From a bacterium (lineage in GTDB: Bacteria > SM23-81 > DAOVCL01), in contig JAOZPP010000069.1 of the NCBI GenBank assembly GCA_029932675.1, positions 1 to 18,886 of the forward strand: DNA of 18,886 nucleotides, given 5' to 3'. Shown here one piece after another: positions 75-15,459 of this stretch. The notes below the pieces were generated by a model. That model had not been told where the DNA came from and ran no database searches. It saw nothing but the letters and a program-made list of their open reading frames with translations. Made by a program: the position numbers and the translations under genes. The number at the start of each line of letters is the position of its first letter. The stretch's first letter is position 1.

Positions 75-3000
75 TTATTTTACATCCCTGTTTCGCCTAT
101 TGGCCCTTGCCCCACATCCCCTGGGAAGAGAACCTGCTATGGGTAGGGTAATGACAAATTTCGTCCCCCTCCCCAACTCGCTTTCCACATCTATCTTGCC
201 CTTGTGGCTCTTCACTATACCATAGCTCACCGATAGGCCAAGTCCTGTCCCCTCTCCAGGTTTTCGGGTAGTGAAAAAGGGATCAAATATCTTATCCAAA
301 TTCTCGGGAGGGATACCACATCCGGTATCGCTAATCTCAACCTTCACCGTAGAACTCTTCGCATCATAAACAGACTTTACCTCTAACTTTCCCCCATGGG
401 GCATGGCCTTTCCGGCATTGATAATTAGATTGGTAAAGACCTGTTCCAACTGATTGGCGTTGCCCACCAGGTGGGGAAGTTGCGGGGCGAGATCCTTGAC
501 CACCTCCACCCTGCTTAGTTTAAGCTGGTGTTCGGTAAAGGTAAAGGAGCTCTCCAATACCTTGTTGATGTCCAACCTTTCGAAATCAGTGGAACTGGAC
601 CGGGAGAAGCGAAGGAGATTCTCCACGATTCCTTTGCACCTTTGGGAACCTTGCTGGATGTAGTCCAAGTATTTTCGGAAACTCTCCAGTTCCTTATCAG
701 TTAGAGAAGTCCCCTTATTCAGCTTCTCCAGCGCGTACTGGGAATAGCCTAAGATGCCGCCGATGGGGTTGTTCAGCTCATGGGCCACCCCGGCGGCCAG
801 CTCGCCCACTGCAGCAAGCTTCCCTGCCTGCACAAGCTGCTCTTGGGTGAGTTTGAGCTCCTCGTATGCCTGATTTATCTCGTCAAAGAGCTGGGCATCC
901 TCGATGACGCTGGCGGCCTGGGAGGCAAATATCTCACAGAGCTCTAACTCCTCCTGGGCAAACCTCTTCCTTTCCCCAAACCTGGCCAAGGTGAAGACCC
1001 CGAGCATCTTCCCCTTGGCGCGCAGGGGGACCGAGAGGAGGGATTGGATAACCCTGGCCTTAATGGGGAGGCGAGAGGTAGAAGTTAAGTGGACATCGTT
1101 CAGCATCTTGGCCTCTCCATTCTGGGCTACCGAACCGGCCAAACCCTCACCCAATTTCAAGGGATGGGAAGCTATCTGGTCCTCATACTTCCCCTTCACC
1201 GCTTTGGGGGTCAAAACCCCCCCCTCTTCCAAGACATAGAGGACGGAGAGGTGGCAATCGAGAAGTTCCTTCACGTTGGTGACAATGCGGGAGAGAACCT
1301 CATCAAAGGAAAGGGTAGAGGATAGGCTCCTGCTCACCTCCAAAAGGGCGGAGAGCTGGTTGACCTTCCTTCCATATTCGGCGAAGAGCCTGGCATTCTC
1401 GATGGCCACCGCCGCTTGGGAGGCAATGGTGGAGAGTAGCTCCAGGTGGCCCTCATCGTAAACGTTCTCCTCAGTGTAGCTCTGCACGCCAATAACCCCT
1501 AACACCCTCTCCCCAGCGATGATCGGCACCCCGAGCCAGGAGCTAGCTGGCTTTCCGTTCATCTCAACCCCCAACTCCCTCTGTTTCTCGGTAACGTCCC
1601 TCTTCACCAGCAGGGGTGCTTTAGTATGGATGATGTATTCGGTCATCCCCTTGCCCCCTCGCCTCTTCACCGGGGGCTCCTTGAGCAACTTGCCCTCATC
1701 CACCGTGAAGACGAAGTTTACCTCATCCAAGCTCTCGTCGTAGAGGGCGATGTAGAAGTTGGTCGTGTCCATCACCCTACCAGCCTGCTTATAGATCTCC
1801 GGGAGAAGCTTCTCCAGCACCAATGTGGAGCTGAGGATTTGGCCAATACGGTTGAGGGTATTCAGCTCCTGGAGCCGCCGCTGGAGTTCGTCGAAAAGGT
1901 TAGCGTTCTCTATGGCCACTGAGGCCAGCTTGGCGAAGAGCTCCACGGGGATGAGGGACTCCGCGGTGGGTATCCTTCCGTCATCAGGTTCATCGACTGA
2001 GATGTAGCCAATAAGCCTCCCCGTTGTTCCCCGCAAGGGGATGAGGAGAAGATCGTTGGGATGCCAACCCTGGAAACCCTCTTGGCGTGGCCGACTTGGT
2101 ATTCCCCTTCCCCGGAAGGGCATTCGATCATGAGGGATGTAGTAGGAGCTGCCCAAGAGAAAACGGTCGCTGAAGACCATCTTCCTCTCCTCAGGGGTCA
2201 TACTGCTCCTTCTCACTTCCGCAATTTCCTTCTTGGTCAAACCAGCAGAGGAGACCAAACGGGCATTGAAATGCTCATCCATCAGGGAGATCAAGACACG
2301 GCGAAAACCGGCGAACTTCTTTACTGCAGTAGCAATTTGATCCAATACCTTCTTTAATTCCTTCTCCCCTAAGATGCTTCCGGCGATATCGGTCAATTCC
2401 TTGATCTGCTTGTACCCCCTCTTTACCTGCTCCTCGGCTCTCTTCTCCTCGGTTATATCCCTCACCCACCCCTGCACCGCTGGCCTCCCCTCATACTCTA
2501 TTCGGGAGGCAAAAATCTCTACATCCCTTATCTCCCCGTCCTTTCTCTGCAATTTCAGGCTGTAATGCCCTTCCACCTCCTCCCCCCTCTCCCTCTTCAA
2601 CCCCCTCTGTTTCACCCACTCTTTATCCTGAGGGGCAATCGCCTCCCAAAAATTCCTCCCCAAAATCTGGCTCCGGCTATATCCGGTGATCTTCTCCACC
2701 TCTGGATTGACAAACTTAAATTTACTATCCTGGAAGATATAGATGCCCGCCAGGGCCCTCTCCACCAAGGTCCTGTATTTCTCCTCGGAGGCCCTGATCT
2801 CCCTGGTCTTCTCCTCAACCTTCCTCTCCAGCTCCCTGTTCCACCTTTGTATCTCCTCCTGAGAGCGATGGAGGTCCTCATAGAGGCGGGCATTCTCTAT
2901 GGCAATTGCCGCTTGGCTGGCAAAGAGGATGAGCAGGTCGAGGTCATCCTGGTCGAACTGGCCAACCACCGAACGGTTGTCCACGTAGACCACCCCGGTG

Positions 3001-3473
3001 AGCTTCCCCTTGGCCTGGAGGGGAACACACATAATGGAGCGCAGCTCCAGGTCCCTTACGCTCACCTGCTGGGCAAATCGGCCATCCTCGAAGGCATTTT
3101 CGATGAGTATCGGCTGGTTGGCCTTCACCACCTCCCCAATTATCGAGTGACTGATCTCAAACTCCGCGCTCTCTATCTGCTCCCGACTGAGGTTACGAGC
3201 TACCTTGAAGTCCAGTTCCCCCTCCTTCCCCATTAGGATGAGAAATCCCCTCTCCGCCCTGGTGATCTCGATCACCTTGTCCATCACATAGTTCAGTAAC
3301 TGATCGAGCTCTAAAGTCGAGTTCATTGCCCGGGAGATGTCCAGCATCTTCTTCAAGTTCACCGCCCCCTCCCCCAGTGGCTCCCCCTGCAGTGGCCCCA
3401 ACTTGGTCTCCAACTCCCTGATCTCCCCCTCCACCTCCTCGAAAAACTCTTCTATGCTCCTTCTCTCTCCCAT
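75..3473 (-). CDS. Soluble multi-GAF/PAS sensor histidine kinase
   Basis: This 1132-aa protein is a cytoplasmic histidine kinase with no membrane segment. Domains in order: GAF1 about 40-197, PAS about 231-345, GAF2 about 355-525, GAF3 about 540-695, GAF4 about 710-865, then dimerisation/phosphoacceptor and ATPase domains about 870-1112. The H-box is [11 protein letters not shown] with His898, an HPK4-type pattern. The N-box is [10 protein letters not shown] (about 1015-1024). G1 is DTGCGIP (1049), the F-box FDPFFTTR and G2 GTGLGLS (1076), so catalysis should be intact. The linkers after each GAF (IENARLY, IENANLF, IENARLF) are alike, which suggests internal domain duplication. The ATG is preceded by GGGAG at 7 nt. 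It is the last gene of the operon, 27 nt after the Ser/Thr kinase gene. No receiver domain or response regulator is in the window, so its phosphotransfer partner is elsewhere. The GAF and PAS ligands cannot be read from sequence. Confidence 0.95.
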
Positions 3474-3500
3474 AATCGGACTCCCTGTAATAATATTCGG

Positions 3501-6500
3501 CTATTGGACGAATTTCTTTAGCTCTTTTATTGCCTGGAAGACCTGATTTCTCCCCTTATCCCTTAGATAGCTCCATTTTAGCCCCTCCCCTTTAATCTGG
3601 GAGCAGGAGGATTTGAAGATGTACACGCACTCCGCGTAGTGCTGCAGGGCCCGCTGGAGGAACTGGCCCTGTTGGTAGAGCTTGCCCATCTGATAGCTAC
3701 CCCTCCACTGCAGCTCTGGGATCTCCATCCCCTGAGCGAGGTTGACGCCCTTCTCCAAGAACTTGAGGGCCCTTGACCTATTCCCCCAAGTGCGCACTCC
3801 CTCCACCTCCCCGCGGAGAAGGTAGGCCTTAGAGAGCAACTCCTTCTTCCCGTGCCTCTGGGCTGTGGAAAGCGCCTCCTCGCAATAACCTAAAGCCTCC
3901 TCATACCTACCCTGTTGCAGGGAGAGGTAACCAAGCTCGACGAAGGTCTCCCCCCTTATCCTCTCATCCCCCAAGATAGTGGAGAACTCCAAGGCTTTTC
4001 TCAGGTTTCTCTCTGCCTCCTCAAACTTCCCATCGGCCAAGCCCACCTTTCCTAACAGGCTATATGCCTCTGCCAAAAGCAGTTTCTCCCCAGTCCTCTC
4101 CACCAGGGAGATAATCCTCTCTATCTCCCTCCTCGCCTTCTCCACCCTTCCCAAGGTGAGGTAAGCTTCAGCAAAGTTGGTCAGGGTCACCGCCTCCAAC
4201 TGAGAGTTTCCCGCCAATCTGCTCATCTGCAGACCCTTGCGGTAGAGGCTCAGGGCCTGGGAGTATCTCCCCCGGGCAAAATAGGTTATCCCCAAGTTGG
4301 TATAGGACATCGCCTCCCCAAACCTATTGCCTATCTGGCGAAAGATCTCCTGGCTTTCTCGGAAGAGCTGGGCCGCCTCCTGATAGTCACCCTTATCTAT
4401 GTGGATACCGGCTATGTTGTTCATACAGGAGGCCTGGCCATTCTTGTCCCCTACCTTTCGGTTTATCTCCAATGACCTCTGAAAATAGCCCAACGCCTTA
4501 GAAGGCTGCCCCCCTACTTGATAGATATTGCCCAAGTTGATGTAGGAGCCGGAGACGCCCATAATGTTGCCAATGCGCTCGGAGATCTCCAAGCTCCTGG
4601 TATGGTAATCCACTGCCTTGCTATGTTCTCCCTGGACGAAGTAGATATTTCCCAGGTTGTTCAACGATGAGGAGATCGCTCTCTGATTCCCCAGCTTTTC
4701 CCTTATCCCTAAGCTCTTCAGGTAAAACTTCTCCGCCTTCTTTGGCTCTCCCCGATAGAAGTAGGCATTTCCTAACACATTATAGAGAAGTCCACCCACC
4801 CGGCAGGTCTTCCGGGAGCCGAGGACCTTCAGCCCCTCCTGGGCAAGCCTCAGGCAGGAGTCAAAATCACCCTTCCTCAACTCCACCATAGCCATATCGG
4901 CCAAGAGCTCTGCCGGAAGCCTCCCTTTAGCCCCCCCTCCTAACTTCTCCATCCCCTCCTTCAATACCTGAAGGGCCCTTTCGTATTCCGATCTGCTCTC
5001 CCAGGCCCGGGAGAGCCGGGAGTAGATCTTTACCTTCTCTGACCTGTTCAGTGCCCAGCTATAGTCCCTCAATGCCTCTTCATACCGCGCAATCGCCTTC
5101 TCCAGTTCCCCGGTGTGGCTGAGAACCTCCCCTAATTCCCCCAAAATCCTTCCCTTCAGCTTCTCCTTTCCCTTCCCTAAATTCTGTAAGGCCCACTGGA
5201 AATAGGAGATGGCAGGTTGATTGCTGTAAAGCTTCTTCGCCCTTAACCCCGCCTTCCAGCAGTAGGTGGCTGCTTTTGCCCCACCCAAACCCCTTTGAAA
5301 GTGGTGGGCCAGTTCCTCTACCCCCACCTCTCCCTTCTCCAATGCCAACCCCACTTTCTGATGAAGCAGTCTCCTCTCCTTCAGGGGGATACGGGTATAG
5401 ACTAAGTTAGAGGTGGTCTGGTGGGAGATCTCCCCTACGGTTGCCCCGGACTGCCAACTCCTCTTAACCAACCTCTTGGCCTCCAAATTGGTCACCGCGG
5501 TGTGCACCTCTTCCGGAGTTAAACCAATCACCTCTGGGAGAAGCCCAAGCCCGACCGGGTGGTTGACCACCGCGAGTGCTCGCAAGACCTTCAGCTCTTC
5601 GGAGGAAAGCCTCTGCAACCTCTGCTCCACTGCTCCACTTACCGAACTGGCTATTTCAAATGCGGCCAACCGATCAGGGTCGCACTTCCAATTTCCCTCT
5701 TGGCGGTAGATGATTCCCTCCTCGCTCAAAGACTTCATCGTCTCCTCGATGAGAAGGGGATTCCCCCCCGCCCGTTCGATCACTTTCTCCTCGATCTCCG
5801 CGGGAGGTTGTTCAACCCCAAGCATGGAGCCGATTAATTCCCTCACCTCTGGCTTCCTCAATCTCTCCAAGGGAATGACCTCACAATGACCCTCATCCTC
5901 TATCCCCTTGAGGGAGAGGGGAGGGGTTTCCCCCTCCTGGAGAGCAGCACAGACCAATAGCTTCTCTCCCCTGCTGTTCCGGATAAGGTAAGAGAGGAGC
6001 TCAAGGCTCACTTCATCCGCCCACTGGAGGTCGATGAGCCCCAGGAGAATGGGTTGGGAGGCGGATACCTGGCTGAGGAAGGAGGTGACGGCATCATGCA
6101 ACCGCAACTTCTCCTGGTCTGGGTCTAACTCCGGGGAAGGCTCTGACTCAATCAGGGAGGGGATGAGCTTTACCAGCTCGGCCGAGTACCTCCTCAACAG
6201 GGGATCATCCTTCTCCACGGTTCCTACCACCCTACGGAGGATATCCACCCAAGGTGCATAAGGGTCCCCCCCCTTCTCATAGCACCGGCCTGAGTAGAAA
6301 CCGAACCCTTCCAACTGCGCCCTGTACTTCAACTCCTTGAGCAACCTCTTCTTCCCTACTCCTCTCTCCCCCTTGAGGAGGACCAGAACTGGCTCCCCAT
6401 CTCCATCCCCGGAGAACCTCTTCTCCATGATTTGGGTAAGCCGCCTGAGCTCTTGTTCTCGGCCCACAAATTTTCCGCTTAAAACATAACTTGCTTTGGT

Positions 6501-7301
6501 CTCTTTGGTCTCGGTAGGGAACTTCTGGCTGGTGAGCTTGTTGATGGCCCTGATCACCTCATTGGCGCTGGCGTATCTCTGGTATGGCTCGGGGGAGAGA
6601 AGCCGGGGAAGGATATCCCTCCAGGGCTGGGGGAAGTCGGCAGAGACCGAGAGGATTTGTGTCTCCAGCTGGTTTTTCGCCACCTCCAAGGGGGTCTTCC
6701 CCTCATAAGGGAGCTCTCCACTGAGGATGTACCAGAGGGTAACCCCCAAAGAGTAGAGGTCAGCTCGTTTGTCTACCTCTGTCCCTTTGACTATTTCGGG
6801 GGCGATATAGGCTAAGGTCCCCTTCACCCTTCCGGCAAGTTCCATCCCTCCCTCTCCGGCTAAACCCAGATCCATTAGCTTCACCACCCTCCCCACCCTA
6901 ATATTCTCCGGTTTGACATCGTAATGGATCAGCCCCCGGGAGTGGATGTACTCCAAAGCCCGCAGCACCCCAACCACCGCTTCCGTGAATTTGGTCCCCG
7001 GATTCTTCTGGGCATAGGCAAACAGATCCTCTCCGGGGATATACTCCATGGTAAAGAAACAACCCTCTGGGGAGCGACCGAAATCGTAAACATCAACCAG
7101 GTTAGGGTGGCGCAGTTTGCTGAGAAGCTCAAATTCATGCTTAAAACATTCACCATCCTTGCCCCCCACCACCTGGGTGGCGATAAATTTAAGCGCTACT
7201 TCCTTACCCCCCTCCTCCCTATCCCGGACCAACCAAACCTCCCCCATACCTCCTTTCCCTAATTTCTTTACTTTTTCATACCTTCCATTGATCGGCTTCA
7301 T
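3501..7301 (-). CDS. Ser/Thr protein kinase fused to AAA-type ATPase and TPR array
   Basis: A 1266-aa three-part signalling protein resembling PknK/MalT-like kinase-ATPase-TPR fusions. The N-terminal Hanks-type kinase (about 7-260) has the glycine loop GKGGMGEVW, the VALKF lysine (Lys38), the catalytic loop HYDVKPEN (Asp128) and a DLG triplet (Asp144) in place of DFG, followed by APE. The ATPase module (about 276-560) opens with FVGRE; its P-loop reads GERGVGKK and its Walker B LIDLQWAD, both departing from consensus. A winged-helix-like stretch follows, then about 13 tetratricopeptide repeats of about 40 residues from about 665 to 1235 (for example SLNNLGNIYF, SYINLGNIYQ). The family pattern is that TPRs bind partners and the ATPase module switches the kinase; the partner here is unknown. 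The ATG at 7301 is preceded by GGAGG at 4 nt. An upstream GTG at 7313, with GGAGG at 7 nt, would add four residues and is equally possible. It lies 31 nt (19 with the GTG) after the HD-GYP gene. Confidence 0.93.
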   Translation of the reverse strand: MKPINGRYEKVKKLGKGGMGEVWLVRDREEGGKEVALKFIATQVVGGKDGECFKHEFELLSKLRHPNLVDVYDFGRSPEGCFFTMEYIPGEDLFAYAQKNPGTKFTEAVVGVLRALEYIHSRGLIHYDVKPENIRVGRVVKLMDLGLAGEGGMELAGRVKGTLAYIAPEIVKGTEVDKRADLYSLGVTLWYILSGELPYEGKTPLEVAKNQLETQILSVSADFPQPWRDILPRLLSPEPYQRYASANEVIRAINKLTSQKFPTETKETKASYVLSGKFVGREQELRRLTQIMEKRFSGDGDGEPVLVLLKGERGVGKKRLLKELKYRAQLEGFGFYSGRCYEKGGDPYAPWVDILRRVVGTVEKDDPLLRRYSAELVKLIPSLIESEPSPELDPDQEKLRLHDAVTSFLSQVSASQPILLGLIDLQWADEVSLELLSYLIRNSRGEKLLVCAALQEGETPPLSLKGIEDEGHCEVIPLERLRKPEVRELIGSMLGVEQPPAEIEEKVIERAGGNPLLIEETMKSLSEEGIIYRQEGNWKCDPDRLAAFEIASSVSGAVEQRLQRLSSEELKVLRALAVVNHPVGLGLLPEVIGLTPEEVHTAVTNLEAKRLVKRSWQSGATVGEISHQTTSNLVYTRIPLKERRLLHQKVGLALEKGEVGVEELAHHFQRGLGGAKAATYCWKAGLRAKKLYSNQPAISYFQWALQNLGKGKEKLKGRILGELGEVLSHTGELEKAIARYEEALRDYSWALNRSEKVKIYSRLSRAWESRSEYERALQVLKEGMEKLGGGAKGRLPAELLADMAMVELRKGDFDSCLRLAQEGLKVLGSRKTCRVGGLLYNVLGNAYFYRGEPKKAEKFYLKSLGIREKLGNQRAISSSLNNLGNIYFVQGEHSKAVDYHTRSLEISERIGNIMGVSGSYINLGNIYQVGGQPSKALGYFQRSLEINRKVGDKNGQASCMNNIAGIHIDKGDYQEAAQLFRESQEIFRQIGNRFGEAMSYTNLGITYFARGRYSQALSLYRKGLQMSRLAGNSQLEAVTLTNFAEAYLTLGRVEKARREIERIISLVERTGEKLLLAEAYSLLGKVGLADGKFEEAERNLRKALEFSTILGDERIRGETFVELGYLSLQQGRYEEALGYCEEALSTAQRHGKKELLSKAYLLRGEVEGVRTWGNRSRALKFLEKGVNLAQGMEIPELQWRGSYQMGKLYQQGQFLQRALQHYAECVYIFKSSCSQIKGEGLKWSYLRDKGRNQVFQAIKELKKFVQ

Positions 7302-7332
7302 TATTCCTCCCACAATTTATCCTCCAATTGGC

Positions 7333-8562
7333 TCATTGGTGGCCATCTTCCCGAAACAAGGTAAGTCTCCCACCTCCACCCCCTAAGTTTGTTTTTCTAA
7401 CTTGCAGATCTGGTTCAGTGAGGTCCGCCACCACCTGAGGGAGTTGATCCCTTCTCAAAATTTCCAAAAAGACATTGACTACTTGGGGGTCAAATTGACT
7501 CCCCCTTCCCTTCTCCAATTCCTGGATCGCTTCCTCCAGGGAGAGGGCCTTTCTGTATGGCCGGTCTATTATCATCGCATCATAGGAATCGGCCACGCTC
7601 AAAATCCTCACCTTAAGGGGGATCTCCACCCCCTTAAGCCCATCTGGATAGCCCTTTCCATCCCACCTCTCATGATGGTGGAGGGCAAGCTCCACTGCCT
7701 CATCGAGGAACTTGGCCTCCCGGAGGATCTTAGCCCCCACCTGAGGGTGCAATCTCACCTCCTCCCATTGGAGAGGGGTAAGGGGGTTGCCTGGGCGATT
7801 CCAGATTATATTCTCTTTTAATCCAATCTTCCCAATGTCATGAAGAAGGACATTGAAACCGAACCTCTCCAACTCCTCCCCTCGAAGCCCAAACTCCCTG
7901 CCTATCTTCATCGCCCAACGGCTTGTGCGCTCCGCATGTCCCTTGCTGTACGGATCTCTGGCCTCTACTGCAGCGATCAGGGCCATTACTGCGCTGGTAT
8001 ACATCTCCTTTAGTTCCCCAAAGAGAAGCAGACTCTCCAAGGCCGCTGCCATCTGAAAGGAGAGGATGGAGGCTATCTGGAGGTCTTCCTCCCGAAATCC
8101 ACTATGTGCCACCTTTTCCCCTAAGGTCAAACAAGCCCTCTGCCCCTCACGGAAAGGGATAAAGAAGAGGAATCTGGCCCCAGTGCCCTTAACTATCTCC
8201 TGAACATCCTTCTTCACCCTACCCGAGGCCGATTCCACGAAAAGCCAACCCTCCTTCTCTAACTCCTCCCAGAGGGGGGAACTATATTCTATCCTCACCT
8301 GGCTCGCCCTCTCCCTATCCACCCCCTTGCTATACTTAACCCGGAGAACACCTAATTTATCCGGCAAGAGAAGGGAGGCAGAGACACAGCCTAACTTGCC
8401 CATCAGGCTTAAGAGAAAGATGTTCACCAGTCTTTCCGTATCCTCCTCCCTCCGCAATTGGCTGGAGAGGTCATATATACTGTTCAGGTCAAAGACCTTC
8501 CTCTTTAGCTCACGGCTTAACTCAAGCAACCCCTTGCTCTGGGAACTAATAGTCCCTTCCAT
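7333..8562 (-). CDS. GAF-HD-GYP cyclic-di-GMP phosphodiesterase
   Basis: A 409-aa cytoplasmic protein predicted to hydrolyse c-di-GMP. Residues about 10-38 form a short helical lead, 39-180 a GAF domain, and 185-370 the HD-GYP domain. The metal-binding motif HDIGK (His241, Asp242) and the diagnostic HHERWDGKGYPDG block (296-308) are complete, with His209 in KGHAERTS and a DRPYR motif at 333. The last 40 residues include a GGGGG run and look disordered. The reading frame is open upstream to 8703, but the ATG at 8562 is the likely start: it has GGAGG at 8568-8572 with a 5-nt spacer, and it begins 1 nt after the stop of the GGDEF gene, so the two are probably translationally coupled. Pairing of a synthase and a hydrolase of the same messenger suggests opposed, ligand-gated control. 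Confidence 0.93.
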   Translation of the reverse strand: MEGTISSQSKGLLELSRELKRKVFDLNSIYDLSSQLRREEDTERLVNIFLLSLMGKLGCVSASLLLPDKLGVLRVKYSKGVDRERASQVRIEYSSPLWEELEKEGWLFVESASGRVKKDVQEIVKGTGARFLFFIPFREGQRACLTLGEKVAHSGFREEDLQIASILSFQMAAALESLLLFGELKEMYTSAVMALIAAVEARDPYSKGHAERTSRWAMKIGREFGLRGEELERFGFNVLLHDIGKIGLKENIIWNRPGNPLTPLQWEEVRLHPQVGAKILREAKFLDEAVELALHHHERWDGKGYPDGLKGVEIPLKVRILSVADSYDAMIIDRPYRKALSLEEAIQELEKGRGSQFDPQVVNVFLEILRRDQLPQVVADLTEPDLQVRKTNLGGGGGRLTLFREDGHQ

Positions 8563-8563
8563 C

Positions 8564-10213
8564 CTATCCTCCAGAGAGAGCCGGGGCAACCTCTCGCTGG
8601 GGTTGCAGCTCCCCATAGTAAATCGAGCGATTGCGTCCCCTCCTTTTGGCCTCATAAAGGGAAAAGTCGGCCTTATAGATGAGTTCATCCATATTGGCCG
8701 CATCCTGAGGGAAGGTTGCTCCTCCCAAACTTATGGTAATCTTCCCTTGCGGCTGCACTTCTTCCCCTTGGAAATGGTAGTCCTCAACCTTCCTCCGCAA
8801 CCTCTCCATAAACTTCTTACAGCCGGTGCTCTTCACCTCTGGCATTATCACACAGAACTCCTCTCCCCCATACCTGGAGACTACATCGATCTTACGCACC
8901 GACTTCTTCAATATCTTGGAGAGTTCCCGCAAAGCTAAGTCGCCCTGTTGATGTCCCAAACAATCGTTGTAGTTTTTGAAGTAATCAACATCCAAAATTA
9001 TCAAGGAGAGCGACCGATCATACCTCTTTGCCCTGATTATCTCCTCCTCCAAACGGTTGGAGAAATACCTGTAATTGTGTAGATCGGTCATCCCATCGGT
9101 GTAGGAGAGTTTCTCCACCTTCTTATACTCCTTCACATTCCCAATGGCCACCCCAGCCATATTGGTAAGGATAGCCAACATCTCCAAATCCTCCGGTTGA
9201 TATGGCTCTCCATTCACCCTCCCCCCCAAAGCTAAAACGCCCATTAGCTCTCCAGAGACCAAAAGAGGGGAAAAGAGCTCAAGTCCAATCTTCTTTAGGT
9301 CGGTAAACTCCTCCTTAAAGAGCGACTCATCGAGCTGGGAGATCAATATAGGCATCCCCTTGTGGGCAATAAAACGGCAGAATGCCGTCTTCCTTTGCAA
9401 AACCAGACCGGACGTCTCCTCTTCCCTAATCCCTTTGCAAAACTTAGGAACAAACTTGCCCTCTCCATCACCGGCGGCGAGGAATATGGTGGCACTCTTT
9501 GCTCCTAACTGGCCTAATATAGTGAGGAGCAGCGAATTGAAGAGGTGGTCTATGTCAAATATTGCATAGACATTTGTGCTCACCTGGAATAGGTTGTGGA
9601 GGTTGTAGATCTTTTTCTTCAGTTCCTTGTTTAATGACCTAAACTCCCGGGTAGCAAGTTCCAGTTGTGCCTTGAACCTCTTAGAGAGGTTGGTCGCCTT
9701 GAGGTAGAGCTTCTCCTTCTGAAGGGAAAGAACAAGAAAATTAGCTAAGACCTGCAAGATCCTCTCCTCGGTCGATTCGGAGATCGCCCCATCCTTCAAG
9801 CCAAGGAGGAGCACCCCGTTAAGCCCTCTCCTCCCCTGCAGGGGAAGAAGGAAGTTCAGACCCTCATCCAGGAAGGGAAAAGAAGTTGGGGGAAAGCAAG
9901 AAAGGGGGAGTGGCTTTCTCTTATCCTTTAAGTAGGAAGTAACCCCCTTGGCCGCTACCCGGTATTTACTCCACTCCCCTTCATCAACCCCCAACCCTCC
10001 CGCCGGCACAAAGTTAGCCCCTCTGCGCCAGAGAAGAATCCCCTTTTCACAACCATAGAACTCAGCCAAGAGGTCAAAAACAAGCTCCATAGTAAGCTTG
10101 AGCCTGTAGTTTCCTACCATCTCCTGGCTTACCCGCTGAATCCCCCGCACCTTCTCCTCCACCCGATCTACCTTTTCCCTCAGGTGAGCAAGCTGAGTAT
10201 CGAGATCTTCCAT
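8564..10213 (-). CDS. GAF-GAF-GGDEF diguanylate cyclase
   Basis: A 549-aa soluble protein predicted to make c-di-GMP from two GTP. Residues 1-30 are helical, a first divergent GAF-like domain covers about 35-165, a coiled-coil linker 165-205, a second GAF about 205-360, and the GGDEF domain about 365-535. The active-site signature is GGEEF (449-453), with the metal/nucleotide block DVDYFKNYND (408-417) and GHQQGD nearby. RKID (440-443) sits exactly five residues before GGEEF, matching the RxxD inhibitory site, so product feedback inhibition is likely. It lies between the small HTH gene (24-nt gap) and the HD-GYP gene (1-nt gap). Its ribosome binding site is weak (CAGGCG), so expression may depend on translation of the HTH gene. 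No EAL domain is present. Confidence 0.95.
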   Translation of the reverse strand: MEDLDTQLAHLREKVDRVEEKVRGIQRVSQEMVGNYRLKLTMELVFDLLAEFYGCEKGILLWRRGANFVPAGGLGVDEGEWSKYRVAAKGVTSYLKDKRKPLPLSCFPPTSFPFLDEGLNFLLPLQGRRGLNGVLLLGLKDGAISESTEERILQVLANFLVLSLQKEKLYLKATNLSKRFKAQLELATREFRSLNKELKKKIYNLHNLFQVSTNVYAIFDIDHLFNSLLLTILGQLGAKSATIFLAAGDGEGKFVPKFCKGIREEETSGLVLQRKTAFCRFIAHKGMPILISQLDESLFKEEFTDLKKIGLELFSPLLVSGELMGVLALGGRVNGEPYQPEDLEMLAILTNMAGVAIGNVKEYKKVEKLSYTDGMTDLHNYRYFSNRLEEEIIRAKRYDRSLSLIILDVDYFKNYNDCLGHQQGDLALRELSKILKKSVRKIDVVSRYGGEEFCVIMPEVKSTGCKKFMERLRRKVEDYHFQGEEVQPQGKITISLGGATFPQDAANMDELIYKADFSLYEAKRRGRNRSIYYGELQPQREVAPALSGG

Positions 10214-10237
10214 TAGTATAAGCGCCTGTAGGTTAAC

Positions 10238-10408
10238 CTATTTACTACCCCAGGTGCGTAGCCACCGATCCAAGGCTTCCCTGACAAACCTCCACTCGTT
10301 CCCCACCTTGCGGGCGGGCACCTTCCCCATCCTGGCCAACCTACAGAGGGTCTTCACATGAAGCCGTAAGTATTCTGCTGCTTCTGCAGCGGTCATCACC
10401 TCATGCAT
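10238..10408 (-). CDS. Small excisionase-family helix-turn-helix protein
   Basis: A 56-aa protein beginning MHEVMTAAEAAEYLRLHVKT and ending in DRWLRTWGSK. The pattern of TAAEAAEYL, a turn, LCRLARMGKVPARKVG, then EWRFVREALDRWL matches the excisionase/MerR-like HTH_17 fold (winged-helix DNA-binding domain). ATG at 10408 is preceded by AGGAGGG with a good spacer; an internal ATG at residue 5 is less likely. It is the first gene of the signalling operon, 24 nt before the diguanylate cyclase, and no integrase or phage gene is near. It is therefore more likely a transcriptional regulator than a recombination directionality factor. Possible targets include the palindromes in the upstream intergenic region, which is inference. 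Confidence 0.85.
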   Translation of the reverse strand: MHEVMTAAEAAEYLRLHVKTLCRLARMGKVPARKVGNEWRFVREALDRWLRTWGSK

Positions 10409-10600
10409 GACAGCCCTCCTTTTTTATCCTTAACTGTATCCAATTGTCTGGAGAAGTTACATAGCAAGCCCCTTGCCATACAATAAGGCCCAAAAGGGGA
10501 TATTCCCCCCTTCAAATCATAATTAGTTCCAAAACAAGGAGTTAAACGGAAAGGTTTTTCTTGAAATAACTAAAAGATAATTGGCTGCAGCGGAGATTGA

Positions 10601-10646
10601 GGATTGCAAATTACCTGAAGAGTCTCGGAATGCAAAAACCCTGAAG
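10601..10646. repeat. Imperfect 20-nt direct repeat, period 26
   Basis: GGATTGCAAA...CCTGAAG at 10601-10620 recurs as GGAATGCAAA...CCTGAAG at 10627-10646, with 16 of 20 positions identical. The second copy runs into the 10643-10670 hairpin. The function is unknown; it could be a paired protein-binding site or part of a structured RNA. Confidence 0.5.
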
Positions 10647-10670
10647 GTGCCAAATCGGTTTGGCACCTTC
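10643..10670 (-). terminator. Perfect 12-bp hairpin, possible attenuator in operon leader
   Basis: GAAGGTGCCAAA and TTTGGCACCTTC form a perfect 12-bp stem around a 4-nt loop. On the minus strand the stem is followed by AGGGTTTTTGC, so a U run is present but displaced by four bases. That could make a leaky terminator 235 nt ahead of the HTH gene. It could equally be a structural RNA element or a dyad operator. Confidence 0.45.
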
Positions 10671-10681
10671 TCCTTGCCTCC

Positions 10682-10716
10682 TGGGTCGCCAAGCTTTGTG
10701 ACCCATTTATTTTAAA
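10682..10716 (+). terminator. Terminator-like hairpin on the plus strand
   Basis: TGGGTCGC pairs with GTGACCCA (8 bp including one G-U) and is followed at once by TTTATTTTAAA, the layout of an intrinsic terminator on the plus strand. No plus-strand gene precedes it in this window, so it would end either an unannotated small RNA or antisense transcription over the signalling operon leader. Read on the minus strand it is simply a 5' leader hairpin. Confidence 0.45.
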
Positions 10717-10896: not shown

Positions 10897-11322
10897 TTGC
10901 CCATAAAGATCAGGCTCCGCAGGATGGGAGCCAAGAAAAAGCCATTTTATAGAATAGTAGTAGCCGAGGCCAAAATGCCCAGGGATGGAAGGTTCATCGA
11001 GGAAGTTGGCTACTACAATCCCCTATTAGAGCCTATGGTGGTGAACCTCAAGGAAGAGAGGATCTATTCGTGGCTGGAAAGGGGAGCTCAACCTACAGAG
11101 ACGGTCAAGTCCCTGCTCAAGAAGGTTGGACTCTGGGCCAAATGGGTGGTGAAAAAGGGGGGTGGTGAGACCTCCGGTATGGAGATCGCCTCTCTTGTTC
11201 CAGGCAAGAGGAGGAGTAAGAAGATCTCTCCGGCCCCAGTTGAGGCAGAATCTGCTACACCAAGTGAGGAGGAGAAAGCTACAGAACAAGCAACGGAGGA
11301 GACTTCTGGAAAGGAGGAATGA
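10897..11322 (+). CDS. rpsP: 30S ribosomal protein S16 with long C-terminal extension
   Basis: S16 is a structural protein of the small ribosomal subunit. The N-terminal part ([20 protein letters not shown], then [15 protein letters not shown]) is diagnostic. At 141 aa it is about 50 residues longer than the usual 80-90 aa. The extra tail after about residue 95 is basic (GKRRSKK) then Ala/Glu/Thr-rich and acidic, ending ETSGKEE, and is probably disordered. The start is TTG at 10897, supported by a near-perfect Shine-Dalgarno sequence AAGGAGGTGAT at 10884-10894 with a 6-nt gap. It heads the cluster; ffh, often found just upstream in other bacteria, is not here, and the next genes to the left point the other way. 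khpA follows after 3 nt. Confidence 0.96.
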
Positions 11323-11325
11323 GAT

Positions 11326-11556
11326 ATGAAGCAGCTTATCGAGTATATTGCGAAGGCTCTAGTTGATAAGCCTGCTGAGGTAGAAGTGAGAGAGGTGGAG
11401 GGTGAGAAGACAATGGTCTACGAGCTAAGAGTTGGCGATGGGGATTTGGGAAAGGTCATTGGCAAGAATGGCCAAACCGCCCGTTCTATTCGGACCATCC
11501 TTAATGCCGCCTCAGCAAAGCAAGGGAAAAGAGCTGTCTTAGAGATCTTAGAGTAA
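11326..11556 (+). CDS. khpA: KH-domain RNA-binding protein KhpA
   Basis: A 76-aa single KH-domain protein (YlqC/KhpA family) whose RNA-binding loop reads [11 protein letters not shown] (GxxG = GKNG). Family members bind RNA broadly, often with KhpB/Jag, and affect cell division and small RNA function. The length matches the family. It starts 3 nt after rpsP, with GGAGG at the end of rpsP as ribosome binding site, which is the conserved gene order rpsP-khpA-rimM-trmD-rplS. Confidence 0.93.
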
Positions 11557-11592
11557 CCCTTCACTGGTTCACCACCATAACCCCTTTACTCC

Positions 11593-11622
11593 GAGCCGTC
11601 AGGCCCCCTCACCTGACGGCTC
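11593..11622 (+). other. Perfect 11-bp hairpin between khpA and rimM
   Basis: GAGCCGTCAGG (11593-11603) and CCTGACGGCTC (11612-11622) form a perfect G/C-rich stem with an 8-nt loop. No T run follows on either strand, so it is not a canonical intrinsic terminator. It sits in the only sizeable gap (87 nt) of the ribosomal part of the cluster, where it could be an mRNA processing or stability element that sets the rpsP-khpA level apart from rimM-trmD. Confidence 0.6.
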
Positions 11623-11643
11623 ATATCCATCAAGGGAAGTGCT

Positions 11644-12165
11644 TTGAAAGAAAAGAAGAGGGAATTTATCACTGTTGGAAAGATCACCCGACCGTATGGG
11701 ACCAAGGGTGCTCTGCGGGTAAAGCCTCTCACCGATTTCCCCCAAAGGTTTCAGGATTTAAAGCAGATTTGGGTCCACTCCCCTAAGGAGGAAAGGATGA
11801 GGATGGAGATAGAGAGGGTGGAGTGGAGGGGAAAGTGGTTAATCATGAACCTCCGGGGGGTAAATACCCGCTCTCAGGCCGAAGAGTGGACAAACTCCTA
11901 CATCGAGGTAAGCGCAGATCAGAGCTTTCCCCTTGCCGGGGGCAGTCACTACATCCATGAGCTCTTGGGCCTCCCGGTATTTACAGAAGAGGGAAGTTTA
12001 GTTGGTCAACTGGAGGATGTTTGGAAGCTTCCGGCCAATGATGTGTGGGTTCTGAGGACAGGAACGGGTCAGAAGCTTATTCCAGCCACCAAAGAGGTTA
12101 TCAAGGAAGTGGATCTCCGCCAGGAGAGGATAGTCATCCATCTCCTCAATGGATTACTTGAGTGA
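11644..12165 (+). CDS. rimM: Ribosome maturation factor RimM
   Basis: RimM binds S19 and helps 16S rRNA head-domain assembly. The 173-aa protein has the N-terminal RimM domain (VGKITRPYGTKGALRVKPLTD, broken here as VGKITRPYGTKG plus ALRVKPL) at about 10-85. A PRC-barrel follows at about 97-173, with the typical PANDVWVL and LIPATKEVIKEVDL segments. The length is normal for the family. The start is TTG at 11644 after a weak AAGGGAAG ribosome binding site; no better in-frame start is seen before the conserved region. Its stop overlaps the start of trmD (GTGATG), indicating coupling. Confidence 0.93.
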   Translation: MKEKKREFITVGKITRPYGTKGALRVKPLTDFPQRFQDLKQIWVHSPKEERMRMEIERVEWRGKWLIMNLRGVNTRSQAEEWTNSYIEVSADQSFPLAGGSHYIHELLGLPVFTEEGSLVGQLEDVWKLPANDVWVLRTGTGQKLIPATKEVIKEVDLRQERIVIHLLNGLLE

Positions 12166-12926
12166 TGAAGATCGATTTAGTGACCATCTTCCCCCAGCTT
12201 TTCCTCCCCCATTTAGAGACTGGAATGTGGGCTATTGCGCAGAAAAAGGGAATAGTCCAATTCGGGATTTATGACCTGAGGAACTACACGGAGAACCAAC
12301 ATCGCACTGTGGATGATTATCCATTCGGCGGAGGTCCGGGGATGATCATGAAACCAGGCCCCATCTTCCGGGCCATAGAGGCCTTAACCGCAAATTCACC
12401 ACAGCCTCCTCCTTTGACAATTCTCCTCTCTCCCCAAGGAGAGAAACTAAACCAAGAGCTGGTCAAGGAATTATCCGAACTCCCTTGGTTGATCCTCCTC
12501 TGTGGCAGATATCGGGGGGTGGACCAAAGGGTAAGGGAGAAGCTCGTGCAACGGGAGATCTCCATTGGAGATTATGTCCTTACCGGAGGTGAACTTCCAG
12601 CAATGGTCCTCATCGATGCAGTAATCAGACTCCTTCCCGGGGTGCTTGGTGACTTAGACTCCGCCAAGGAGGACTCTTTCTATGAGGGCCTGTTAGATTG
12701 CCCCCACTATACCAGACCCCAGAACTTCCGCGGGCTGAAGGTTCCTCCAGTTCTCCTCTCTGGCAACCACCAGGAGATCCGTAGATGGAGAAGGAGAAAG
12801 GCTTTGGAATTGACCTTGGAGAAGAGACCGGACCTTCTCCCTCAGGCGAATTTATCGAAGGAGGATTTGGACTATCTTGCCCAAATTGGCTATCACCAAC
12901 AACCAGGAGGCGAACGATGGATCTGA
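12165..12926 (+). CDS. trmD: tRNA (guanine-N1)-methyltransferase TrmD
   Basis: TrmD is a SPOUT-fold enzyme that methylates G37 of tRNAs from S-adenosylmethionine, preventing +1 frameshifting. The 253-aa protein has [10 protein letters not shown] at the N-terminus, [11 protein letters not shown], the knot region [15 protein letters not shown], the SAKEDSF segment with the catalytic-region Asp, and the C-terminal RPDLL motif. The usual GRYEGIDERV block reads [10 protein letters not shown] here. ATG at 12165 overlaps the rimM stop by one base; a GTG at 12162 would add one residue. It overlaps rplS by 10 nt. Confidence 0.95.
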
Positions 12927-13261
12927 TTAGAGAATTCACCTCTAAATATATAAAAAGAGAGGTTCCCAACTTTAACCCAGGGGATACGGTAAGGGTTCAG
13001 ACAAAGGTCAAAGAGGGGGACAAGGAAAGGTTGCAGACATTTCAGGGAACAGTGATCAAGAAAAAGGGAGGCGGAACAGCGGAAACCTTCACCGTGCGCA
13101 AGCTCAGCGGCGGGGTAGGTGTGGAGAGGATCTTCCCCCTCTATTCCCCCAACCTAACCAAGATAGAGGTAGTGAAAAGGGGAAAGGTGAGGAGGGCGAA
13201 GCTCTATTACTTAAGGAAGAGGAAGGGAAAGGCAGCGAAGGTAAAGGAAAAGATCACATAG
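12917..13261 (+). CDS. rplS: 50S ribosomal protein L19
   Basis: L19 sits at the 30S-50S interface. The 114-aa protein shows the diagnostic [37 protein letters not shown] and RRAKLYYLR segments, and the length matches the family. The frame is open upstream to 12785, but the real start is ATG at 12917. AGGAGG stands 6 nt before it, and the product then begins in register with other L19 proteins. It overlaps the end of trmD by 10 nt. Confidence 0.96.
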
Positions 13262-13265
13262 GCTG

Positions 13266-13871
13266 GTGATTTCCCTTACATTAGAGGAAAAGTTCAGGGG
13301 GCAGGGGTTCAAGTATATTGCTGGGATCGATGAAGCCGGCAGGGGTCCCCTGGCCGGGCCAGTTGTTGCCGCAGCAGTGATCTTTCCGCCAAACCTATTG
13401 TTGGAGGGGGTGGATGACTCTAAAAAACTAAGCCCCCGCCAAAGGGAGAGGAGCTATCAGGAGATAGTGGAAAAGGCAATGGCCTTTGGGATTGGGGAGA
13501 CCGATGTAGAAACTATAGATCGGCTCAATATCGCTCAGGCCTCCTTGCTGGCCATGAAAAAGGCAGTGGAATCCCTCCCTATCTTCCCTGATCTCCTCTT
13601 GGTAGATGGTAACAGGTTCATTCCAGGGGTGGGGATAGAACAGAGGACCATAATAGGTGGGGATGCTCAGTGTTTCTCCATTGCCTCAGCATCCATTCTG
13701 GCCAAAGTGACCAGGGATAGGCTAATGGATGTCTATGATGTCCTTTATCCTGGCTATGGGTTCTCTCAAAACAAGGGATATGCCACCTCCATCCATCGAG
13801 AGGCCTTAAGGAGGTTAGGACCCTGTGAAGTCCATCGACGATCTTTTTCGCTCCTGGGGGCTCAAGCGTAG
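13266..13871 (+). CDS. rnhB: Ribonuclease HII
   Basis: RNase HII removes ribonucleotides from DNA and RNA primers from RNA-DNA hybrids. The 201-aa protein carries GIDEAGRGPLAGPVVAAA with the first two acidic catalytic residues, DSKKLSPRQRE, LLVDGN and ASILAKVTRDR with the remaining catalytic aspartates, then PGYGFSQNKGY. The length is typical. The start is GTG at 13266, 4 nt after the rplS stop; the ribosome binding site is poor, suggesting reinitiation. Its last 47 nt overlap yraN in another frame. Confidence 0.95.
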   Translation: MISLTLEEKFRGQGFKYIAGIDEAGRGPLAGPVVAAAVIFPPNLLLEGVDDSKKLSPRQRERSYQEIVEKAMAFGIGETDVETIDRLNIAQASLLAMKKAVESLPIFPDLLLVDGNRFIPGVGIEQRTIIGGDAQCFSIASASILAKVTRDRLMDVYDVLYPGYGFSQNKGYATSIHREALRRLGPCEVHRRSFSLLGAQA

Positions 13872-14241
13872 CCCTTTAGGGAGCGGTGCCAAATCTACTC
13901 TGGGAAGGCGAGGGGAAACCATTGCCTCCCGTTACTTGGAGGGGAAGGGTTACCAGATATTAGAAAAGAACTACCGAGCCCTGCGAGGGGAGATCGACAT
14001 AATTGCCCGCAAGCGAGGGGAAATAACCTTCGTCGAGGTAAAGAGCGGCAGAAGCCTAAGGTTTGGCCCTCCCTTAGAAAGGGTTGATCTGCGTAAACAG
14101 AGGCAAATAGCCAAGGTAGCTTTGGCTTGGCTCCAATCGAAAGGGTTGGAAGAAGTGCCCTGCCGGTTTGATGTTCTCTCCATAACTGAGGAAAGGGGGT
14201 CAATCAGAATAGAACATATCCAAGATGCCTTCCAGATTTAA
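13825..14241 (+). CDS. yraN: UPF0102/YraN-family endonuclease-fold protein
   Basis: A 138-aa member of the YraN family, which has a restriction-endonuclease-like fold and a conserved place next to rnhB. The core ALRGEIDIIARKRGEITFVEV includes the Glu, Asp and Glu-Val-Lys residues (GEIDII...FVEVK) expected of a PD-(D/E)xK nuclease site, and GRRGE lies near residue 28. The true biochemical role of the family is not well established. The GTG at 13825 gives a 47-nt overlap with rnhB. TTAGGA just upstream is a possible ribosome binding site, and no good start lies further downstream before the conserved region. Confidence 0.9.
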   Translation: MKSIDDLFRSWGLKRSPLGSGAKSTLGRRGETIASRYLEGKGYQILEKNYRALRGEIDIIARKRGEITFVEVKSGRSLRFGPPLERVDLRKQRQIAKVALAWLQSKGLEEVPCRFDVLSITEERGSIRIEHIQDAFQI

Positions 14242-14267
14242 CCACTTCCAGGGGATTCCTTTTCAAA

Positions 14268-14299
14268 CAGGGTGGCAGAAGATCTATTCTGCCACCTTG
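14268..14299 (+). terminator. Hairpin after yraN, possible terminator
   Basis: A 13-bp stem (CAGGGTGGCAGAA with TTCTGCCACCTTG, one G-U pair) closes a 6-nt loop 26 nt after the yraN stop. It is followed by CGCTTTTG, a short U run starting three bases after the stem. It probably ends or attenuates transcription of the translation cluster before ispG. No clear promoter for ispG was found in the remaining gap. Confidence 0.5.
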
Positions 14300-14406
14300 C
14301 GCTTTTGCCCCCAGACAAACAGGACGGGGGGAGAATCCAAGCAAGCAGTGGATTTCTGCGGGTAAAGCCTTTAAGATAGGCGGTGATTATAGGAGCCATG
14401 TTTAAG

Positions 14407-15459
14407 ATGAAGAGGAGAAAGACGAAAGCCATCCCTGTCGGCGGAGTCCAGATCGGCGGGGGTTCACCCATCGTGGTCCAATCGATGACCAAGACCTATA
14501 CTCAGGATGTAGAGGCTACCCTGGCCCAGATAAGAAGGTTGGAGAAGGCTGGGTGTCAATTGGTCAGGGTAGCGGTCCCGGACAGGGAGGCTGCCGCGGC
14601 CATCTCTAAAATCAAGCCAAAGATAAGGATACCCTTAGTTGCCGATATCCACTTTGATCATAGGCTTGCCCTTTTAAGTATAGAAAACGGGGCGGACAAG
14701 CTCAGAATCAATCCCGGAAACATCCAGGATAGGGGGAAGCTCAGGGAGATAGTCTCGGCAGCAAAAGGCCGAGGAATCCCTATTCGTATAGGGGTAAACT
14801 CAGGTTCCCTACCCCTTGATCTCTATGAAAAATACGGTGGGGTCACCTCCAAGGGTTTGGTGGAAGCAGCCTTAAGGTGGGTGGCGCTATTTGAGGAGTG
14901 GGGATTTGAAAGAATAGTCATCTCCCTCAAGTCCAGTGACCTCCCCCTGACCATAGAGGCCAACAGGGAGATCTCCTCCATCCTCGACTATCCCTTACAC
15001 CTGGGGATCACCGAGGCTGGTCCCCCTCGGTTGGGGACAATCAAATCGGCTATAGGCATAGGCACACTCCTCGCCGAGGGGATTGGGGACACCCTCCGGG
15101 TCTCCCTCACCAGCGATCCTATAGAGGAGGTGAGGGTGGGGAGAGCCATCCTCAAGTCAATGGACCTCCTCCGAGAGGGGCCAGTAATTATCTCCTGTCC
15201 TACCTGTGGTCGCTGTGAGATAGATGTAGTAAAGATCGCTGAAGAGGTGGAGAAAAGGCTAGAAGGGTTCAAAAAGCCGCTCAAGGTTGCGGTTATGGGC
15301 TGTGTAGTCAACGGTCCAGGAGAGGCCAGGGAGGCGGATGTGGGGATGGCGGGAGGTAAGGGATCTGGGCTCATCTTCCGGCGGGGGAAACCGATAAGGA
15401 AGGTTGCCGAGTCAAAGATAGTAGAGGCATTGATCGAGGAGGTGAGGAGATTATGCTAA
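14407..15459 (+). CDS. ispG: 4-hydroxy-3-methylbut-2-enyl-diphosphate synthase (IspG/GcpE)
   Basis: IspG is the [4Fe-4S] enzyme of the MEP pathway that converts MEcPP to HMBPP. The 350-aa protein begins MKRRKTKAIPVGGV and contains GGGSPIVVQSMT, VADIHFDH and the NPGNI motif in the TIM-barrel part. The C-terminal domain has cluster ligands in CPTCGRCEID and GCVVNGPGEA. It is the short bacterial form without the plant-type insertion. Several starts are in frame: GTG 14383, ATG 14398 and ATG 14407. The last fits the family N-terminus and has AGGAG 11 nt upstream, while the ATG at 14398 has AGGAG too close. Presence of IspG indicates the MEP rather than the mevalonate route. Its end overlaps the next gene by 7 nt. 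Confidence 0.95.
   Translation: MKRRKTKAIPVGGVQIGGGSPIVVQSMTKTYTQDVEATLAQIRRLEKAGCQLVRVAVPDREAAAAISKIKPKIRIPLVADIHFDHRLALLSIENGADKLRINPGNIQDRGKLREIVSAAKGRGIPIRIGVNSGSLPLDLYEKYGGVTSKGLVEAALRWVALFEEWGFERIVISLKSSDLPLTIEANREISSILDYPLHLGITEAGPPRLGTIKSAIGIGTLLAEGIGDTLRVSLTSDPIEEVRVGRAILKSMDLLREGPVIISCPTCGRCEIDVVKIAEEVEKRLEGFKKPLKVAVMGCVVNGPGEAREADVGMAGGKGSGLIFRRGKPIRKVAESKIVEALIEEVRRLC

Follow-up and report, generated by a model that had tools for sequence, protein, structure and literature searches.

Are five adjacent genes that combine the synthesis and breakdown of c-di-GMP with a Ser/Thr kinase and a histidine kinase one integrated signalling system, or separate systems that share a transcript? 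The question is raised by a set of genes on the reverse strand of an 18,886-nt stretch of bacterial DNA (hereafter the window), which is the entire contig C58 of a 3.03 Mb assembly of 116 contigs (completeness 97%, contamination 0.24). A sequence-only reading of this DNA had proposed that the five genes are a fixed combination forming an integrated module of three signalling chemistries. We compared the window with the one available genome of the same genus, Candidatus Zixiibacteriota bacterium CSMAG_1030 (G001, about 220 contigs), and with two genomes of the same phylum (G002 and G003); the window genome and CSMAG_1030 are both fragmented assemblies. The operon is made of two ordinary signalling cassettes in tandem and is not a new system as an operon, and two of its parts, a split dual kinase and a sigma-54-type promoter, are worth keeping (Table 1).

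Table 1. Features of the five-gene locus and its upstream region, in window positions.
Feature	Position	Strand	Basis or remark
Terminator-like element: 12-bp perfect hairpin, then AGGGTTTTTG	10643..10670	-	Upstream of the promoter
Sigma-54-type -24/-12 promoter, TGGCAAGGGGCTTGCT	10463..10478	-	Exact pattern match; 54 nt ahead of the HTH start codon
HTH_17/excisionase-like (MerR-type fold) DNA-binding protein, 56 aa	10238..10408	-	Pfam HTH_17 7.5e-14
Diguanylate cyclase (DGC)	8564..10213	-	Pfam GGDEF 6.4e-46, GAF 6e-11
HD-GYP phosphodiesterase with N-terminal GAF	7333..8562	-	Pfam HD_5 5e-39, HD
Hanks-type Ser/Thr kinase-AAA_16-TPR protein (STK)	3501..7313 (GTG); ATG at 7301	-	Pfam, motifs
Soluble histidine kinase (HK)	75..3473	-	Pfam; NCBIfam AtoS-like kinase core 2.6e-72
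HK GAF1, STK-associated adapter-type GAF	2895-3314	-	Tree, junction alignment, survey
HK PAS (residues 231-342)	about 2448-2783	-	Pfam
HK GAF2-4	between PAS and HisKA	-	Pfam
HK HisKA	about 594-809	-	Pfam
HK HATPase	about 138-461	-	Pfam

The genes follow each other in the order HTH, DGC, HD-GYP, STK and HK, all in one direction, with gaps of 24, 1, 19 and 27 nt, the third becoming 31 nt if the STK begins at its ATG; all of these open reading frames were found with the sizes and spacings first described. In all five, dN/dS against the CSMAG_1030 orthologs is 0.10-0.13, a sign of purifying selection and thus of real genes. As had been stated, none of the five proteins has a convincing membrane helix: hydropathy over 19 residues peaks at 1.96, within the GAF domain of the HD-GYP protein. 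The contig stops 74 nt past the HK stop codon, at base 1, so that the 3' end of the operon lies outside the sequence. Divergent from the operon is a housekeeping run (10897-15459, forward strand) of genes that we take, by reading, to be rpsP, a KH protein gene, rimM, trmD, rplS, rnhB, a YraN-like gene and ispG. Beyond it, an 887-aa secreted protein (15453-18116, forward strand) matches Peptidase_C25 weakly in Pfam and carries a FlgD_ig domain at its C terminus, resembling proteins with a sorting-type tail.

The five genes are likely co-transcribed, since the gaps between them leave no room for promoters or terminators and the first gene is preceded by a conserved sigma-54-type promoter. In CSMAG_1030 the counterpart of this promoter, TGGCAAGGGGATTGCT, lies inside a well-conserved block. 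The pattern TGGCA-N6-TTGCW has 35 exact matches in the window's own genome, compared with 1 for the reversed control, and RpoN is encoded in the same genome; the two features expected of a sigma-54-dependent operon, this pattern upstream and RpoN in the genome, are therefore both present. From the consensus and from conservation in two genomes we infer that RpoN uses the promoter. A second match to the pattern (5210-5225, forward strand) is probably due to chance, as it lies on the opposite strand within the STK gene and about 0.9 matches are expected with one mismatch allowed.

Other sites of this pattern in the genome precede flagellar rod/hook-type, Wza-like export-type and Hsp20-type genes, names that we presume from the N-termini of the encoded proteins. 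Sites ahead of flagellar-like and export-like genes agree with a connection of sigma-54 with flagella and exopolysaccharide described in the literature (PMC3162934), and our analysis suggests that the operon may have a motile-sessile role.

On the far side of the promoter, the terminator-like hairpin might act as an insulator between the operon and the rpsP side. The region between the operon and rpsP (10643-10705) contains two neighbouring hairpins, GAAGGTGCCAAACCGATTTGGCACCTTC on the reverse strand and TGGGTCGCCAAGCTTTGTGACCCA on the forward strand, each followed by a T-rich stretch. A search for a c-di-GMP riboswitch or other leader RNA ahead of the operon gave no Rfam match at the gathering level and one chance match at a permissive level.

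The first three genes make up a c-di-GMP cassette. The tiny HTH protein that heads the set, confirmed as a 56-aa frame with a Pfam HTH_17 domain, also matches NCBIfam 'excise' (1.8e-13), and its ortholog in CSMAG_1030 is 84% identical (dN/dS 0.12). We set aside a role as a phage excisionase, as no integrase or phage gene was noticed by eye in the window and the protein heads the cassette in the relative too. In the DGC, an N-terminal region (residues 1-190) is followed by a GAF domain (220-357) and a GGDEF domain (371-529) that reads RKID-VVSRY-GGEEF, with the RxxD I-site five residues ahead of GGEEF; the CSMAG_1030 ortholog, 77% identical, reads RKID-IVSRY-GGEEF and so conserves the GGEEF. 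At the sequence level the protein thus has what is expected of an active cyclase: a GG[DE]EF signature with a fold match, and the I-site. An AlphaFold model built from a two-row alignment had a mean pLDDT of 34.6 and was uninformative for the fold of residues 1-190.

The HD-GYP protein starts at an internal ATG (MEGTISS) of a longer open frame, 1 nt past the DGC stop. It carries HDIGK and HHERWDGKGYPDG, which agree with HDxGK and HHExxDGxGYP; its ortholog, which has HHERFDGKGYPDG, is 73-76% identical, with the last 28 residues unaligned. The proposal that the motifs of both c-di-GMP synthesis and breakdown are intact therefore holds. The two enzymes share a homologous GAF domain together with the helix ahead of it (E 1e-12 across some 200 residues), which supports viewing them as a pair with matched GAF sensors. 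Paired GGDEF and HD-GYP genes with GAF sensors are general c-di-GMP modules, and the window pair is like them in having opposed enzymes side by side, a GAF domain on each and intact active-site motifs; what the window adds is the leading 56-aa HTH_17 protein, the sigma-54-type promoter and the attached kinase genes. Our literature search found no paper combining Zixibacteria and c-di-GMP.

The STK is, as had been described, a Hanks-type kinase fused to an ATPase and TPR, with Pkinase (residues 12-251), AAA_16 (281-453) and then about 460 residues of TPR recognized by Pfam. Its true start is likely the ATG at 7301, because the start of the ortholog, MRTIDGRY, matches MKPINGRY there. The motifs VALK, HYDVKPEN, DLG and APE are present, and the kinase may be active. 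The Walker A motif, GERGVGKK, has no usual Ser/Thr and departs from GxxxxGK[ST], whereas the compared paralogs have GKS or GKT; the AAA part may therefore not hydrolyse ATP. Walker B reads LIDIQLSDE in the CSMAG_1030 STK. The HK was first described as a soluble histidine kinase with four GAF domains: GAF, HisKA and HATPase_c were found by Pfam, but there is an additional PAS domain, and the 950-aa CSMAG_1030 ortholog has one GAF fewer, so that the fourfold GAF array is not a fixed property. By reading, the H-box, N, G1 and G2 boxes are present, and the HK may likewise be active.

If the five genes were a fixed module, their order should recur in relatives. In CSMAG_1030 the HTH, DGC and HD-GYP genes stand together on contig C92, at the identities given above and behind the conserved promoter, and the STK and HK genes (76-78% identity to the window proteins) are located apart from them. 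The STK ortholog there lies partly at the end of C23 and partly at the end of C90, the assembly being broken inside the gene; a second STK (37-41% identical) lies ahead, with its stop codon running into the STK start, and downstream comes the HK ortholog, followed by genes for a GAF-PAS-GAF protein and a membrane protein. Each cassette thus retains its own gene order though the cassettes are separate. We found no orthologs in G002 or G003, where the best matches were 34% for the DGC, over its GAF-GGDEF part, and 30% for the STK. A fixed five-gene module is therefore not supported, as the orthologs are split between two places in the sole same-genus genome and absent from both same-phylum genomes. 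The fixed combination thereby falls to the refuting test set out in the sequence-only reading.

The same comparison weighs against the proposed integration, in which the kinases would directly control the DGC and the HD-GYP protein and so couple phosphorylation on Ser/Thr and on His to c-di-GMP turnover. Besides the separation of the cassettes in the relative, a cyclase profile search over 241 genomes found full-length kin confined to the genus, and three partial homologs outside it that stand without any of the other operon partners. Pfam finds no receiver domain in the DGC or HD-GYP protein, which leaves the HK without a visible phosphoacceptor in the operon. We regard direct integration as improbable, even with the tight gene spacing in its favour. 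Two further observations lend it something: a different GAF-GGDEF gene, 576 nt past HD-GYP in CSMAG_1030 (C92, 3932-5005; L106), has a GAF of the STK-linked type, and a Kinase+6 TPR+GGDEF protein (gi|23020879) reported in Clostridium thermocellum (PMC1262709) indicates that STK arms can drive cyclases. The clostridial protein, like the window, links a TPR-bearing Ser/Thr kinase to c-di-GMP synthesis; it is, however, one polypeptide with no HD-GYP or HK, whereas the window cyclase is a separate gene. No counterpart of the CSMAG_1030 GAF-GGDEF protein was seen in the window's genome.

The split also allows that the two halves became neighbours by chance in a recent rearrangement, sharing a promoter and otherwise unrelated. 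The 28 unaligned residues at the end of the HD-GYP protein are what a breakpoint there would leave, and the order differs in CSMAG_1030, where HD-GYP is followed by the 576-nt non-coding stretch (L106:3356-3932); this stretch has short repeats and is a possible rearrangement scar. The junction in the window is, however, neat (19 or 31 nt, co-directional), like those of operons kept by selection, and with two genomes compared either gene order may be the older one. Chance adjacency is thus a real but rather unlikely explanation. Far less probable still is an assembly chimera in this metagenome-derived genome. The fragmentation of both genomes would make a false join conceivable, but this join lies inside a contig and between co-directional genes, there is no abrupt composition shift across it, and the completeness and contamination values given above speak against it.

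What, then, connects the two kinases? When STK and HK were joined and aligned over their full length with fusion proteins, the gene boundary fell at the TPR-GAF joint. A tree of 50 GAF domains places HK GAF1 in a group of 11 rows with STK-linked GAFs (support 86/83), the inner six of which have support 100/96; GAF3 and GAF4 lie among other GAFs, apart from that group. By both tree and junction alignment, the GAF beside the kinase arm is therefore kin to the GAFs of STK fusions. In the window's own genome (C35) and in G003 (C79) the kinase-AAA_16-TPR arm leads into a GAF and then a sigma-54 activator with Fis-type HTH, as recognized by Pfam; G002 (C296) has the arm and GAF with a sigma-54 domain identified by sequence matches. 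C16 of the window's genome has the same chain over two genes, STK then GAF-sigma54, and in distant genomes, among them Pseudomonas and G050, the chain of kinase arm and GAF terminates in a histidine kinase. Relative to the sigma-54 fusions, the window shares the arm and the type of GAF, but its output is a histidine kinase instead of a sigma-54 activator with Fis-type HTH.

A profile of GAF1 run over 241 genomes gave 36 loci that were inspected. An STK was in the same frame in 16/36 and in a neighbouring gene in 10/36; 2/36 represent one truncated AAA-TPR-GAF-sigma54 frame, and 8/36 had no STK within the available DNA. As 20/36 regions were selected chiefly for the length of their frames, the fusion share is inflated; among the loci outside this selection, 7/16 had a neighbouring STK gene no more than 1.5 kb away. 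Scanning genome contigs with the STK returned CSMAG_1030 as the sole close relative and otherwise mostly Pseudomonas proteins at 24-27% identity. STK-AAA-TPR-GAF-sigma54 fusions are widespread, at about 1500-2000 aa (for example G000 C35:143-5437, G003 C79 and G002 C296). A literature search by title found no publication on such fusions, which is weak evidence, subscription journals not being covered.

Dual kinases with the order Ser/Thr kinase-GAF-HK have been reported from cyanobacteria (PMC2176072, PMC1262709). In the HstK type, an N-terminal Hanks kinase is followed by at least one GAF and by C-terminal HisKA and HATPase domains (PMC2176072). Together, the window STK and HK carry the same parts in the same order as these proteins (cyanobacterial cbSTKIII; HstK/Alr2258 and Pkn40/Pkn41 of Anabaena). 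Unlike them, the window pair is not one polypeptide but two genes 27 nt apart, with a PAS and three GAFs added ahead of HisKA, a TPR arm and a non-cyanobacterial host.

These comparisons support the view of STK and HK as a functional pair, a candidate unfused Ser/Thr-His dual kinase in which the STK would most likely act on the HK via GAF1. GAF domains shuffle freely, however, so that the kinship of GAF1 is no proof of such action; the grouping of 11 rows is moderately supported, with one distant row on a long branch; and given its degenerate AAA motif the arm may work unlike its relatives.

Another cluster of the same genome (C102:445-9309) encodes HDOD, GAF-HK, REC-GGDEF, REC-GAF-HD-GYP, REC-sigma54 activator and TPR-HD-GYP proteins. 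Its HK-DGC-HD-GYP core recurs in G001 (C160) and partly in G002 (C68: HK and REC-GGDEF), so that this cluster is better conserved than the window set. The C102 HK, which adjoins receivers, is 48% identical to the window HK in the kinase core, and cross-talk of the window HK with the C102 regulators is possible.

On balance we consider it probable that the locus is one sigma-54-dependent transcript of two tandem cassettes, a c-di-GMP switch and a split Ser/Thr-His dual kinase, a reading for which CSMAG_1030, with its assembly broken inside the STK gene, is the only close relative compared. In the first cassette, the HTH_17 protein would be a probable autoregulator, and one cytoplasmic ligand or state could drive the DGC and the HD-GYP protein in opposite directions, because their GAF sensors are homologous. 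In the second, the STK would sense or dock through its TPR arm and control the HK through GAF1, a domain that related proteins carry fused to the same arm, and the HK would phosphorylate a response regulator encoded elsewhere. We infer the STK-to-HK signalling, the shared GAF ligand and any coupling of the cassettes beyond co-expression.

In known dual Ser/Thr-His kinases both activities sit in one large protein, within which the flow of the signal is difficult to examine. A pair encoded naturally by two genes provides separable partners, making GAF-mediated control of an HK by an STK testable with two purified proteins. More speculatively, and in our view doubtful, GAFs of this type may be portable receivers for STK-AAA-TPR arms, with an HK, a sigma-54 activator or a cyclase as output, fused or in trans; the window arm would then act in trans on its HK, and c-di-GMP would be set from the same transcript. 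If this were true, a Ser/Thr kinase signal would reach both His-Asp and c-di-GMP signalling.
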